A stretch of 64,000 nt of DNA from Bradyrhizobium sp. CCBAU 53340. GTDB lineage: Bacteria > Pseudomonadota > Alphaproteobacteria > Rhizobiales > Xanthobacteraceae. The notes beneath the pieces were generated by a model, which did no database searches, had not been told where the DNA came from, and saw nothing but the letters and a program-made list of their open reading frames with translations. Position 1 is the stretch's first letter; each line of letters starts with the position of its first letter. A program made the position numbers and the translations under genes. This document shows positions 4,795 through 62,518 of the stretch, piece by piece. Location: NCBI RefSeq assembly GCF_015291645.1, contig NZ_CP030055.1, forward strand, positions 7,086,001 through 7,150,000. The letters run 5' to 3'.

Positions 4795-5895
4795 TCAAAA
4801 ACACGTCGTCCGCTCAGCCGCGATGTAGCCGAACAGCAGCCCCGCCCCGAACAGCAGAACCATAGCCGCGGCGCCGAATTCGATGCCGCGCATGAACAGC
4901 GCACCACCGCCGTCGCGCCCCGCGCTGAGGCGGCCAGCGATGTCCTTGGCGGAAACGGCGACGACCGCGATGGCCGCAACGGTGATGGCGGTGCCCAGCC
5001 CCATCAGCAAGGTTGCGGCAATGCCGGCCCAGAACAGGCCTTGGACGAGTGCGAACACCAGCACCAGGATCGCGCCCGAGCAGGGGCGGATGCCGACGGT
5101 GAGGATCGCAGCAAACCCGCGCCGCCAGCCGCCGGGACCGGCGAGCTCGCTCGGGGTTGGACCGTGGGAATGGCCGCAATGCTCGTCGTGGACGTGGTCA
5201 TGCCCATGATCGTGATCAGCGTGCGCGCGATCGTGATGCTGGTGATCATGCATATCATGATGGTGATGGCCATGATCATGATGCTCATGCGGCACGCCCG
5301 CGATCGCCGGCACCGGCTGCGTGGTCTGGAGCGCGCGGATGAACGTGCGCCCCTTGACCCAGACCAGGCGCAGGCCGAACAGCGCGATCAGGGCGTAGCT
5401 TGCGATCTCGATCGCCCCCTCCGCCTTGCACATGGTCCTGGCGGTGGCGTTCAGGATCCAGGCCGAGATGCCGACGATCAGGATCGCGACCAGCGACTGC
5501 ATCAGCGCCGAGGCGAACGACAGCGCGATGCCGCGCCGCGCGGTCTCGCGGTTGGCGACCAGATAAGAAGCGATCACCGCCTTGCCGTGGCCGGGGCCCG
5601 CGGCATGGAAAATGCCGTAAGCAAAGGAGATGAAGAGCAGCGTCCACACCGCCGAGCCGTCGGACTTGGCGGCGCGGATGGTCGACGACATCTGGCGATA
5701 GAATTCCGACTGCTTTGCCAGCAGCCAGCCGATCAGGCCACTGGCCTCGGGCGCCGCCGCCGGTGCCTGCTTCGGCGCGCCGAATGGATTTTGCGCGAGG
5801 ACCTCGTGAAGCACCGCATCGGCTGCGCCCGCGACCAGGAGCACGGCGAGGCAGGCAATCAGCCCACGCACGAGCGGCGGGAGATGCGGCTTCAA
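4795..5895 (-). CDS. NicO/RcnA-type nickel-cobalt exporter with His-rich loop
   Basis: A 366-residue inner-membrane protein with about seven hydrophobic segments, the NicO motif GPGHGKAVIASYL and the second motif GIRPCSGAILVLVFALVQG. Between them is a loop very rich in His and Asp (about residues 175-220), a likely Ni/Co/Zn-binding region. The upstream gene ends with TGA, which overlaps a TTG in this frame (TTGA), so I take the TTG at 5895 as the start. The frame stays open far upstream, but that part lies inside the DUF1007 and peptidase genes. With DUF1007 it forms a common metal-export pair. Confidence 0.88.
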   Translation of the reverse strand: MKPHLPPLVRGLIACLAVLLVAGAADAVLHEVLAQNPFGAPKQAPAAAPEASGLIGWLLAKQSEFYRQMSSTIRAAKSDGSAVWTLLFISFAYGIFHAAGPGHGKAVIASYLVANRETARRGIALSFASALMQSLVAILIVGISAWILNATARTMCKAEGAIEIASYALIALFGLRLVWVKGRTFIRALQTTQPVPAIAGVPHEHHDHGHHHHDMHDHQHHDRAHADHDHGHDHVHDEHCGHSHGPTPSELAGPGGWRRGFAAILTVGIRPCSGAILVLVFALVQGLFWAGIAATLLMGLGTAITVAAIAVVAVSAKDIAGRLSAGRDGGGALFMRGIEFGAAAMVLLFGAGLLFGYIAAERTTCF

Positions 5896-6524
5896 GGGCA
5901 ATCCACCGTGATCTTGTTGGCGAACATCATGCCGAAATTGGCGTTCGGGCCGTCGGTGAAGGTCTGCTCGTTGAGCTTCTGCGCGGTCGCGGTGCCGTCG
6001 CTGGGACGATCGAGCTTCATCTGGCAGGCGGAGGGCGCGCCGACCAGCTTGACCGGATTGTCCTTGGCCATCTGGAAATCGATGAAGAAGGAACGGTCGA
6101 ACACTTCGAGCACCAGCTGCTTGGGCTTGAGCGGGTTCTTCAGCGGCAGCGTGAAGTGCAGGGTGAGCACCGTATCCTTGTAGTCGAGGAAGTAGTCGAC
6201 CGGTTCGCCAAAGCGCTCCTTCTTGCCGTCGGCTTTGGCGAATGTGAAGTAGGCATATTCCTTCAGCGACTCGACATTGGTCTGCGCCAGCGGCCCCAGT
6301 TCCTCGCGGGTGTAGGCGCCCTTGGTCTTGCTCTCCAGGCCCTGCACCGCATAGGCCGAGAACATGTCGTCGAAGGTCCAGGCGTGGCGCACGCCAGTGA
6401 TCGAGCCATCCTCGGCATAGAGCAATTCGCTTGTCGCGGTGATCCAGACATGCGGATGCGCGCTCGCCGCGCCTGATGCGAGCATCATGGCGGCGGCGAG
6501 CAGCCGTCCCAGCAGGGCGCGCAT
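5892..6524 (-). CDS. DUF1007-family periplasmic protein
   Basis: A 210-residue protein with a signal peptide (residues 1-20, LLAAAMMLASGAASA) and then HPHVWITATSELLY, the typical start of mature DUF1007 proteins. The His pair could bind metal. DUF1007 genes are regularly found next to NicO exporters, and here the stop overlaps the NicO start. The ATG at 6524 lies 5 bp after the peptidase stop, with GGCTTGACCGGC before it. The function is probably periplasmic help to Ni/Co transport, which is an inference from context. Confidence 0.88.
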   Translation of the reverse strand: MRALLGRLLAAAMMLASGAASAHPHVWITATSELLYAEDGSITGVRHAWTFDDMFSAYAVQGLESKTKGAYTREELGPLAQTNVESLKEYAYFTFAKADGKKERFGEPVDYFLDYKDTVLTLHFTLPLKNPLKPKQLVLEVFDRSFFIDFQMAKDNPVKLVGAPSACQMKLDRPSDGTATAQKLNEQTFTDGPNANFGMMFANKITVDCP

Positions 6525-6529
6525 GCCGG

Positions 6530-8608
6530 TCAAGCCGCCTTGTCGTCGAGCAGGCCGCGACGGCGCAGCAGCGCGTCGGGCTCGGGCGGGCGACCACGGA
6601 AGGCCTCGTAGGCTGCTTCCGGATCGACCGATCCGCCGCTCGAATAGATGTCGTCGTGCAGGCGTTTTGCCACCGCAGGATCGAAGATGTTGCCGGCCTC
6701 CTCGAAGGCACCGAAGGCGTCGGCGTCCATCACCTCGGACCACATGTAGCTGTAATAGCCGGCCGCATAGTGGTCGCCGGAGAAGATGTGGCCGAATTGC
6801 GTGGGCCGGTGCCGCATCGAGATTTCCTCGGGCATGCCGATCTTCTCCAGCTCCCTTTTCTCGAAGGCCCGGACGTCCTGCGCGTCCGCGGCTGGCTGGG
6901 AGTGGAATTCGAGATCGACCAGCGCCGAGGAGACGAATTCGACGGTGGCAAAGCCCTGGTTGAACTTGCGCGCGGCCAGGAAGCGCTTGAGCAGATCGTC
7001 CGGCAAGGGCTCGCCGGTCTGGTAGTGACGGGCGAATTTCTGCAGCACTTCGGGCCGCTCCTGCCAGTGCTCGTAGAGCTGCGAGGGCAGCTCCACGAAG
7101 TCGGTGAAGACAGAGGTGCCCGACAGCGACGGATAGGTCACGTTGGAGAGCATGCCGTGCAGGCCGTGGCCGAACTCGTGGAACAGGGTCCGGGCATCGT
7201 CGGGCGACAGCAGCGAGGGCTCAGCTCCGGTGCCCTTGGCGAAATTGCAGACGTTGATGATGAGCGGCGCGATCTCGCCGTCGAGCTTCTGCTGGTCGCG
7301 CAGCGAGGTCATCCAGGCGCCGGAGCGTTTTGATGGCCGGGCGTAGTAGTCGCCGTAGAACAGCGCCTTGTGCTTGCCGTCCGGTCCCTTCACCTCCCAA
7401 ACCCGGACGTCGGGGTGCCAGACCGGCACGTCCTTGCGCTCCTCGAAGGTGATGCCGAACAGGCGGGTGGCGCAGTCGAAGGCGGCGGCGATCATGTGGT
7501 CGAGCGTGAGGTACGGCTTGATCGCGGCATCGTCGAAATTGGCGCGCTGCAGGCGCAGCTTCTCGGCGTAGAAGCGCCAGTCCCACGGCGCGAGCTTGAA
7601 ATTGCCGCCCTCCTCCGTGATCAGCGCCTGCATTTCGTCGCGGTCGGCGAGCGCCCGCGCCCGGGCCGGCTTCCAGACCCGCTCCAGCAGGCCGCGCACG
7701 GCGTCCGGCGTCTTGGCCATGGAATCCTCGAGCCGGTAGGCGGCAAAGGTCGGGTAGCCCAGGAGCTTGGCGCTCTCCTCGCGCAGCTTCAAAATCTCGC
7801 CGATGGCGGTGTTGTTGTCGTTGGCATTGCCGTTGTCGCCACGCGCTGTGAAGGCCTTGTAGACCTTCTCGCGCAGGTCGCGCCTCGCCGAACTCTTCAG
7901 GAACGGCTCGGCCGAGGAGCGCGACAGCGTCACGATGGCCTTGCCGGCCATGCCGCGATCTTCTGCCGCAGCCTTGGCGGCGGCGACGAAGCTCTCCGGC
8001 AGGCCCTGGCGATCGGCCTCCCCCAGCTCCATGAACCAGTCCTGCTCGTCGCCGAGCAGATGATGGCTGAAGCCGGTCGCGAGCTGGGCCAGCTTCTCGT
8101 TGATCTCCGCCATCCGCGTCTTGGCCTCGTCCGACAGGCCGGCGCCGGCGCGGTGGAAGCGGGTATAGGTGCGCTCCAAGAGGCGGAGCTGCTCCGGGGT
8201 GAGGCCGAGATTGGCGCGGTTCTCGTGCAGCTGGGCGATGCGGCCAAACAGCACGGCGTTCATCATGATCGGATTCCAGTGCCGCGCCATCCGCAAGGAG
8301 ACCTCCTTGTCGATGTCGAGAATGGCCGGGTTGGAATGCGCCGAGACGAGATCGTAGAAGACCGCGGCGACCTTGTTCAGTAGCTTGCCGGAGCGCTCCA
8401 GCGCCGTGATCGTGTTGGCGAAGTCTGGTGCGGCGGGATCGTTGGTGATCGCCGCGATCTCGGCAGCGTGGTCGGCGAAGGCCTGCTCGAAGCCCGGGAG
8501 GAAGTGCTCTGGCTTGATCTCGTCGAAGGGCGGGGTCGCAAACGGCGTCACCCAGGCCTTCAGCAGCGGGTTGGTCTCGGCGTCCGTAGTTTGGCGGGGT
8601 TCTGACAT
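6530..8608 (-). CDS. M3-family zinc metallopeptidase (oligopeptidase A / Dcp type)
   Basis: A 692-residue cytoplasmic peptidase. The zinc motif HEFGH is at about residues 477-481, preceded by LSPDDARTLF and followed by GLHGMLSNVTYPSLSGTSVFTDFVELPSQLYEHW with the downstream Glu ligand region. The length fits oligopeptidase A or peptidyl-dipeptidase Dcp, which degrade short peptides. The start at 8608 (MSEPRQTTDAE) is supported by homology at that point; an in-frame ATG at 8746 would add a basic, low-homology extension. It is the first gene of the NicO operon, an odd pairing without an obvious functional link. Confidence 0.93.
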   Translation of the reverse strand: MSEPRQTTDAETNPLLKAWVTPFATPPFDEIKPEHFLPGFEQAFADHAAEIAAITNDPAAPDFANTITALERSGKLLNKVAAVFYDLVSAHSNPAILDIDKEVSLRMARHWNPIMMNAVLFGRIAQLHENRANLGLTPEQLRLLERTYTRFHRAGAGLSDEAKTRMAEINEKLAQLATGFSHHLLGDEQDWFMELGEADRQGLPESFVAAAKAAAEDRGMAGKAIVTLSRSSAEPFLKSSARRDLREKVYKAFTARGDNGNANDNNTAIGEILKLREESAKLLGYPTFAAYRLEDSMAKTPDAVRGLLERVWKPARARALADRDEMQALITEEGGNFKLAPWDWRFYAEKLRLQRANFDDAAIKPYLTLDHMIAAAFDCATRLFGITFEERKDVPVWHPDVRVWEVKGPDGKHKALFYGDYYARPSKRSGAWMTSLRDQQKLDGEIAPLIINVCNFAKGTGAEPSLLSPDDARTLFHEFGHGLHGMLSNVTYPSLSGTSVFTDFVELPSQLYEHWQERPEVLQKFARHYQTGEPLPDDLLKRFLAARKFNQGFATVEFVSSALVDLEFHSQPAADAQDVRAFEKRELEKIGMPEEISMRHRPTQFGHIFSGDHYAAGYYSYMWSEVMDADAFGAFEEAGNIFDPAVAKRLHDDIYSSGGSVDPEAAYEAFRGRPPEPDALLRRRGLLDDKAA

Positions 8609-19643: not shown

Positions 19644-20509
19644 GCCTCCAGATGCCGGCCGGGAAACATCTGCCTGACGATGCCGCCGACGCGGCCGAAC
19701 AGGACGGAGACGATGTAGAGCACCGTCGCCACGAGAATGATCGCAGGACCTGACGGCACGCGGGTCTGGAACGACAGCACGAGACCGGCATAGCCCGAGA
19801 GCGCGGCAGCGGCGACCGCGATGCAGATCATCGCCGTGAGATCGCGCGACCAGAACCGCGCAATGCCGGCCGGCAGGATCATCAAGCCGACGGCCAGCAA
19901 CGTGCCGAGGGCCTGAAAGCCGTTGACGAGATTGATGACGACGAGCGCAAGGAAGGCGAGATGCGCTGGCCCGCCGGCGCGGCTGACGGTGCGCAAGAAC
20001 AACGGATCGACGCTCTCGATCACCAGCGGGCGATAGATCACCGCGAGCACTAGCAGCGTGACCGTGGCGTTGAAGGCGACCACCAGCAGCGTCTGGTCGT
20101 CCATCGCGAGGATATTGCCGAACAAGACGTGAAGGAGGTCGATATTGGTGCCCTTGATCGAGACGATGGTGACGCCGAGCGCGAGCGAGGCGAGATAGAA
20201 GGTCGCGAGCGAGGCGTCCTCCTTCAGCCCGGTCGAGCGCGCGACGACGCCGGCGAGGATGGCCACCGCAAAGCCCGCGATCAGGCCGCCCGCCGTCATC
20301 GCAAACAAATTGAGGCCCGAAAGCAGAAAGCCGACCGCAGCACCAGGCAGGATCGCGTGCGCCATGGCGTCGCCGACAAGGCTCATCCGCCGCAGCATCA
20401 GGAACACGCCAATCGGCGCGCCCGCCAGCGACAGCGCGATCACGGCCGCGAGCGCGCGCCGCATGAACTCGAATTCGGTGAACGGTCCGATCAGCGCGTC
20501 GTAGATCAT
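19640..20509 (-). CDS. znuB: Zinc-type ABC transporter permease (ZnuB-like)
   Basis: A 289-residue inner-membrane protein with about eight hydrophobic segments and the ABC-3 family pattern: ALAAVIALSLAGAPIGVFLMLRRMSLVGDAMAHAILPGAAVGFLLSG, then TGLKEDASLATFYLASLALGVTIVSIKGTNIDLLHVLFGNILAM. The C-terminal segment is AGLVLSFQTRVPSGPAIIL. It lies 6 bp after the ATPase gene and its stop overlaps the ZnuA start. Confidence 0.94.
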   Translation of the reverse strand: MIYDALIGPFTEFEFMRRALAAVIALSLAGAPIGVFLMLRRMSLVGDAMAHAILPGAAVGFLLSGLNLFAMTAGGLIAGFAVAILAGVVARSTGLKEDASLATFYLASLALGVTIVSIKGTNIDLLHVLFGNILAMDDQTLLVVAFNATVTLLVLAVIYRPLVIESVDPLFLRTVSRAGGPAHLAFLALVVINLVNGFQALGTLLAVGLMILPAGIARFWSRDLTAMICIAVAAAALSGYAGLVLSFQTRVPSGPAIILVATVLYIVSVLFGRVGGIVRQMFPGRHLEA

Positions 20510-61751: not shown

Positions 61752-61892
61752 GTCTTTCCCCGTCTCGTTGCCTCGAAGGGGTAGCCCGCAAGTTTTAATA
61801 AACTTCGAAGTGCCGTCGGCTCGGACTGGAACCGTTAAGCGTCGTTAACGCCAGCTTCGTTCTGACCGGCAGGAACGGGCAGAAATTTCTCG

Positions 61893-61908
61893 TGTGACGC
61901 GCGTCACA
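61893..61908. promoter_or_regulatory. CRP-type perfect palindrome between ldt and the double-glycine genes
   Basis: TGTGACGCGCGTCACA is a perfect match to the CRP core TGTGA-N6-TCACA, 81 bp before the first peptide gene and 142 bp before the L,D-transpeptidase start. Confidence 0.7.
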
Positions 61909-61989
61909 GTCGAAACGAATTCGCCGCGGTACACCTGCGACCACGAAATGAGAGGGGATGGCACCCTCCTTCGACAGCGGGAGACACCA

Positions 61990-62169
61990 ATGACTGAGCA
62001 TAGCAATCGGAAGCATAAAGAGTTGGAAGAGCGTGAACTCGATACCGTGTGCGGTGGCTTCATCAACGATGGCGGCTGCATCGGCCCGTGGATCGTGAAT
62101 GGAAAGATCACGACCCATCAACCTCCCGGCCCGAACCCCTGGCTGCCAGGCGGCATCTTTCACGGCTGA
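61990..62169 (+). CDS. Double-glycine leader peptide precursor 1 (bacteriocin-like)
   Basis: A 59-residue small protein. The leader (1-23) ends ELEERELDTVCGG, matching the double-glycine motif for C39-peptidase export. The predicted 36-residue core starts FINDGG, has one Cys, and ends PGGIFHG; GIFHG is a GxxxG. The ATG follows GGGAGACACCA. No transporter or immunity gene was found in the window. It may be a class II bacteriocin or a RiPP-like peptide. Confidence 0.75.
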   Translation: MTEHSNRKHKELEERELDTVCGGFINDGGCIGPWIVNGKITTHQPPGPNPWLPGGIFHG

Positions 62170-62222
62170 ACCTCACGACCTCAACATTTCTGACACACAC
62201 AATCTGAACAGGAGCAACGACA

Positions 62223-62450
62223 ATGCTGAACTCTGACCATGTGAAATCTGGAATGATCGAACTGACCGATGCGGAGCTGGAGACGATCGTCGGCGGCAAC
62301 TGGCTCGGCGACGCCTTCCGTGCCATCGGCAGTGCCATCAAGGACGCCGTCACGTGGGTCGGCGGCCTGATCTTTGGTGGCTTGCAGGGCCCGGGCAACC
62401 AGCGCGGCCCGTTCGGCCCGGGGTCGGGCCCCGGCCAGCCGCCGTTCTGA
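62223..62450 (+). CDS. Double-glycine leader peptide precursor 2 (bacteriocin-like)
   Basis: A 75-residue protein. The leader (1-25) has IELTDAELETIVGG, a classic double-glycine end. The core (26-75) begins with an amphipathic stretch GDAFRAIGSAIKDAVTWVGGLIFGG (GLIFG is GxxxG), then a Gly/Pro tail ending PGQPPF. The ATG follows AGGAGCAACGACA. Together with gene 1, 53 bp upstream, it could form a two-peptide system. Confidence 0.78.
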   Translation: MLNSDHVKSGMIELTDAELETIVGGNWLGDAFRAIGSAIKDAVTWVGGLIFGGLQGPGNQRGPFGPGSGPGQPPF

Positions 62451-62490
62451 TCACGTCTTTTCTGACTTGCTCGAAAGCGGAAACGACGAA

Positions 62491-62518
62491 AGCCCCGGAG
62501 ATGTCTCCGGGGCTTTTT
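62491..62518 (+). terminator. Strong terminator after the double-glycine peptides
   Basis: AGCCCCGGAG-ATGT-CTCCGGGGCT followed by TTTT, 40 bp after the second peptide stop. It closes the small operon. Confidence 0.9.

Follow-up and report, generated by a model that had tools for sequence, protein, structure and literature searches.

Two small genes, which we designate A and B, lie next to each other in the window, i.e. the whole 64-kb stretch of DNA that we analysed, and each of them encodes a short precursor with a double-glycine (GG) leader (Table 1). Both open reading frames (ORFs) are exactly where the first-pass annotation had placed them. The good ribosome sites it had reported are found by direct reading, as GGGAG shortly 5' of the ATG of A and AGGAG shortly 5' of the ATG of B. 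The unit was also said to be closed by a strong terminator, and the folding agrees with this: the 86-nt stretch around the hairpin has a predicted energy of -38.6 kcal/mol, with a z score of -5.4 against 200 shuffles, and the hairpin itself was missed by a simple terminator scan. The ORF list holds no third gene between the start of A and the terminator. A relaxed GG-leader motif occurs four times in the six frames of the window. The two occurrences in small ORFs are those of A and B only, ~240 nt apart, and the remaining two lie in minus-strand frames of ~190-200 codons.

Table 1. Features of the A-B locus and of the exporter locus. Positions are those of the window, except for the last line, where they are those of locus L056.
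Feature	Position	Strand	Remarks
Gene A	61990-62169	+	59-aa GG-leader precursor; leader 61990-62058, predicted core from 62059
Gene B	62223-62450	+	75-aa GG-leader precursor; leader 62223-62297, predicted core from 62298
A-B cassette	61889..62473	+	stretch common to copies at loci with unrelated flanks (blastn)
CRP-type operator TGTGACGCGCGTCACA	61893..61908	.	0-1 mismatch in 24/24 copies
Candidate -10, TACACC	61930..61935	+	conserved TAC block at a fixed distance from the box (24-copy alignment)
Intrinsic terminator hairpin, then T run	62489..62516	+	from folding of the surrounding 86 nt
Secreted, probably helical protein	L056 10969-11508		adjoins the NHLM exporter

The leaders of A and B, with 23 and 25 residues respectively, follow the same pattern EL-x3-EL-x2-[VI]-x-GG. 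The GG is invariant in 23 of the 23 aligned A sequences and in 30 of the 30 aligned B sequences, so the double-glycine leaders proposed in the first pass are kept, with their ends conserved, across the homologues. We calculated dN/dS with Nei-Gojobori counts and the Jukes-Cantor correction on the means, and observed an average of 0.16 over the 45 pairs formed by 10 copies of A, and of 0.22 over the 105 pairs formed by 15 copies of B. The values are 0.26 and 0.30 for the leaders of A and B but 0.10 and 0.165 for their cores, and hence the cores are the more constrained part of both precursors. The A core has 36 aa, is rich in Gly and Pro with one cysteine, and shows no amphipathicity in the windows computed. 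The B core has 50 aa and consists of an amphipathic N-terminal stretch, predicted as a helix with muH 0.61 and a z score of 3.3 versus 500 shuffles, and a Gly/Pro-rich tail. The GxxxG motifs pointed out earlier are present in both cores, but such a motif means little in Gly-rich peptides and is not invariant among the B homologues.

Every match of A and B in Pfam and NCBIfam stays under the curated cut-off, and the earlier wording of a new family is fair for the two sequences. The absence of a family above cut-off and the non-adjacent exporter described below could be taken to mean that A and B have no function and are either ORFs that arose by chance or what is left of decayed genes. Against this, their dN/dS values are far under 1, they are found in many genomes, and the operator, the start region and the terminator are all conserved. 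We consider such a reading very improbable, and dropped it in view of the purifying selection, the homologues and the conserved operator; A and B are confirmed as real conserved genes under purifying selection.

The search for A and B across Bradyrhizobium that the first-pass annotation had suggested returned homologues of B in 11 of 146 Bradyrhizobium-group genomes and homologues of A in 11 of them, including a distant one in G012 (50% over 44 aa), which makes 12 genomes with A or B in all. In a large protein database 43 clusters match B and 13 match A. Scanning named genomes brought up 23 loci, of which 22 bear Bradyrhizobium in the title and the last belongs to a proteobacterial MAG. B has no match in the plasmid collection. 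A link to nodulation is not indicated by NodA, which is not enriched in the genomes with B (strong matches in 7/11 versus 85/146 overall).

The pair behaves as a cassette. In the fetched loci B comes after each of the A copies (19/19, where the two copies at contig ends of G111 are probably one), and B is found without A at six fetched loci. Two other GG peptides come after the distant A of G012; at about 1090-1680 of its locus, L039, there is an operon of three GG peptides, the first of which is this distant A (DGGCIPPW). When the window pair was compared with the fetched loci by blastn, its outer flanks were common only to L058 (G014), and the other A-B copies share ~560-585 bp with it and nothing outside. 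The copies of L059, L060, L062 and L063 and those flanking exporters match only from ~61889/61894 to 62450/62473.

No C39 exporter is encoded in the window, as had been stated, and the three PF03412 matches of the genome sit at two other loci. One of these, L056, lies at a distance of 1.18 Mb and is an operon of the NHLM type (HlyD/ABC1/ABC2). Its HlyD scores 304.5 bits with TIGR03794 (cut-off 156.2), its ABC1 1035.4 bits with TIGR03796 (cut-off 853.3) and its ABC2 846.5 bits with TIGR03797 (cut-off 709.4), and the C39 triad motifs ECG, NHF and NDP are seen by eye in ABC1. L056 is the one C39-peptidase ABC exporter with a catalytic cysteine in this genome, and the distant transporter is the better of the two guesses made in the first pass, which had named a C39 exporter elsewhere in the genome as the thing to look for. 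Two of the outcomes that the first pass had listed as refutations, leader ends not conserved and a genome lacking a C39 exporter, are thereby not observed. The second C39-like locus, L057, was rejected as an exporter of this kind, both of its domains being without the catalytic cysteine by eye. Both C39-like domains belong to one type I secretion ABC protein (5605-8268, minus strand), which is encoded next to a 715-aa ORF.

The link between this exporter and the A-B pair is seen in the relatives. ABC1 is present in 43 of the 146 genomes, and each of the 12 genomes that have A or B is one of them (hypergeometric probability 1.2e-7, with the genomes counted as independent of kinship). We compared the ABC1 identity for 34 of the exporters of these 43 genomes. 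Thirteen are at least 83.6% identical to the ABC1 of L056 and the next one has 73.1%; every one of the 11 genomes with B belongs to these 13, and none falls outside. G008 and G024 have the close exporter type and no B, the ABC2 of G008 being matched only in part. In six genomes (G034, G084, G078, G061, G063 and G111) inverted A-B copies lie on both sides of the exporter, in the order B-A (minus), secreted helical protein, HlyD, ABC1, ABC2 and A-B (plus), or its mirror image, with the last B of G111 cut by the contig end. The same inverted framing is seen in three loci from named genomes, L138, L142 (where ABC2 is split between two frames) and L145.

Within a genome, the inverted copies show an identity of 92.9-99.5% over 451-633 bp, and an exporter segment framed in this way may be invertible. 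The exporter segments of G061 (L052) and G063 (L053) are reversed relative to one outer flank (a match of 88.9% over 1783 bp and another of 87.0% over 370 bp); the comparison covers one flank, as the other ends with the contig. An inversion through recombination between the A-B copies is likely.

Of the 21 exporter loci, 19 have the secreted and probably helical protein next to the exporter, amid very different cargos. This protein has 511 database matches with no named family, only weak matches in Pfam (the best being HTH_41, E 0.0017, in 12 of 25 members) and no relative among the solved sequences. Its predicted model is all helical with a mean pLDDT of 71.9, and gave no Foldseek match at E <= 0.001. 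A role as a specific immunity protein is not favoured, because it accompanies very different cargos, and for the same reason an accessory protein is the better fit.

A CRP-type box, TGTGA-N6-TCACA with 0-1 mismatch, is present upstream of all 24 copies (18 A-B and 6 solo B), 77-81 nt before A and roughly 101-108 nt before solo B. The 8.7-Mb genome has its strict form, TGTGAC-N4-GTCACA, at only two places, one preceding the pair in the window and the other the solo B of L055, and both of these are B-family loci. The genome has 19 sites of TGTGA-N6-TCACA versus 0 for the reversed pattern, and 66 sites of YGTGA-N6-TCACR versus 9. These 66 sites look like a CRP-type regulon reaching beyond GG peptides. 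If TACACC is the -10 element, the operator would be centred at -41.5, the class II CRP position in E. coli. CRP reads TGTGA with R-E-x-x-x-R; HTH_Crp_2 has 24 matches over cut-off in the genome, and a CRP-like recognition helix, R-E-S-x-N-[KR], is found in 2 of the 21 helices read (L178 and L185). A perfect TGTGA-N6-TCACA also lies at 11772 of L056, with the secreted helical protein on one side and a GG peptide on the other.

A and B are not the only candidate cargos. Near 16 of the 21 exporters fetched (20 loci plus L056) we found a total of 35 small ORFs that carry the GG motif and whose cores are unrelated, and none near the other five exporters (L103, L105, L117, L119 and L120, including G036's own). 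A box stands within 60-260 nt upstream of the leader motif in 15 of the 35, compared with 0.011 expected per window of this size. The distance from box to leader motif in these 15 is 114-131 nt (119 for A of the window, about 150 for solo B), and it is nearly constant although the start codons differ, suggesting that operator and leader may be inherited as one module. The remaining 20 ORFs have no such box; some of them are later genes of tandem arrays and others have no such excuse. At L111, L114 and L115, near NHLM exporters, we observed several near-identical 70-aa GG peptides with Q/N/G-rich cores, in tandem in L111 and L114, and a CRP-type box heads each array.

We also started from the boxes. 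We read 53 of the 66 sites in the genome, and five lead to GG-motif ORFs, three already known and two new, L207 (G000:C1:3796554) and L210 (G000:C1:4051009). The GG-motif rate at 20000 random positions is 1.05%, in a pool that includes the true loci, and the two new ORFs are modest evidence on their own. None of the other 48 boxes leads to a GG peptide, and hence the regulator appears to serve other genes too.

Our analysis suggests, with a probability of roughly 0.78, that the A-B pair is one cargo cassette of a dispersed and co-regulated GG-peptide system made up of cassette, exporter and operator. This probability does not extend to the activity of the peptides. A and B would be the precursors of two small secreted peptides, and a CRP-family regulator may bind the palindrome before A and activate a single A-B transcript. 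The distant NHLM-type exporter would recognise the leader motif of A and B, its C39 domain would cut the precursors after Gly-Gly, and HlyD, ABC1 and ABC2 would probably export the cores in trans, steps that we infer from the conservation and the linkage in relatives. The window would then carry one of several scattered cargo cassettes with a common operator, spacing and leader code.

As to what the peptides do, we tentatively consider a bacteriocin- or microcin-like secreted pair, with B as the helical membrane-active partner, to be the most likely activity. The first-pass annotation had proposed a two-peptide bacteriocin. In the strict class IIb-like form, A and B would both be needed, would form a joint pore in related bacteria and would be accompanied by an immunity protein. 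The GG leaders, the C39 exporter and the constant presence of B after A in the fetched loci agree with the proposal, as does the amphipathic helix of the B core. In G012 the partnership of the distant A is kept with the partner changed, and some B homologues are automatically annotated as bacteriocin-like or as members of the lactobin A/cerein 7B family (P0004, P0043). However, both cores should be amphipathic in class IIb, and the B core is while the A core is not in the windows computed; solo B, with its own operator, occurs at six fetched loci, and the cores are more conserved than the leaders. In addition, all class II models stay under cut-off (among the best, TIGR01847 with 14.5 of 15.7 bits, Bacteriocin_IIc with 13.9 of 27.1), and no immunity gene was identified, the helical protein beside the exporter fitting an accessory better. 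We regard the strict form as rather unlikely, and a two-peptide bacteriocin as no more than a possibility for A-B.

Kin signalling or self-directed action ranks next to a bacteriocin- or microcin-like activity and is, in our view, doubtful. The peptides could be secreted signals or self-acting peptides under CRP control, serving kin signalling, biofilm or autolysis with no killing of competitors. The strong conservation of the cores is consistent with such a role, and so are the lack of an immunity gene among those found, the several copies per genome and the shared operator; the Neisseria Nap peptides considered below offer a precedent, at least as the consulted part of that paper describes them. 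The amphipathic B core speaks against it by suggesting a membrane target. A related view, which we think improbable, is a dispersed regulon in which one exporter serves many unrelated cores at scattered loci, jointly switched by a CRP-family regulator through the constant module of operator, spacing and leader, with peptides that signal to kin or plant and are not bacteriocins. The near-invariant A core contains a P-x-G-P-N-P stretch that may resemble the centre of the plant CLE hormones, although the terminal residues typical of CLE peptides are not evident.

The favoured reading, a dispersed cargo cassette served by an NHLM-type exporter, has parallels in known systems. In the portion consulted, Haft et al. 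2010 (PMC2887384) foresaw both further peptide families for the NHLM exporter and precursors far from the export genes, and the exporters here match the three models of that system above cut-off. The NHLP and N11P leaders described there are long, with the GG at average positions of 83 and 70 in the two families new in that paper, whereas those of A and B are short. An NHLP/N11P precursor was rejected for A and B, as TIGR03793 and TIGR03798 are absent from their NCBIfam matches at E <= 1. Unlike in the NHLM/NHLP system, the ORFs that we read next to the exporter in L049 and L056 showed no modification enzyme. Many diverse cyanobacterial GG peptides around C39 ABC transporters are reported in the part of Wang et al. 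2011 (PMC3140520) available to us; their leader consensus resembles the A and B leaders and their cores differ, and we did not find in that part scattered orphan cassettes with a common CRP-type operator.

Class II microcins and class IIb bacteriocins have in common with A-B the GG leader, the short core, two adjacent genes and a helical B, and differ in that here every model scores under its cut-off, A is non-amphipathic in the windows computed, export would be of the NHLM type and no immunity gene was identified. The Neisseria Nap peptides (PMC11798529), in the excerpt consulted, carry GG leaders and class II microcin features, have no detectable antimicrobial activity and promote autolysis. 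As in the present case, a C39 peptidase goes together with several GG peptides that show features of bacteriocins, a likeness drawn from the description. Unlike in the present case, one island holds regulator, peptidase and export channel, whereas the A-B cargo and its exporter can be distant. In the open-licence literature we found no paper on this system of GG peptides and NHLM exporters in Bradyrhizobium, and the genus is not mentioned in the consulted part of PMC13174018. The parts are known, and their arrangement is apparently undescribed.

An orphan gene pair becomes a testable system, and the operator with its spacing gives a route to further cargo genes, two more candidates having been found in the same genome. 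How inoculant strains compete with native ones is a question on which the peptides secreted by nodule and soil bacteria have a bearing. With its inverted A-B copies, and with the exporter segment reversed in one pair of relatives, the exporter locus is a natural example of secretion genes flanked by their own cargo. In three genomes (L050, L052 and L053) the B copies to the left and right of the exporter differ in the core in the same way, WVGGLIFGG versus WVGGFIAGG, while the rest of the repeats is very similar.
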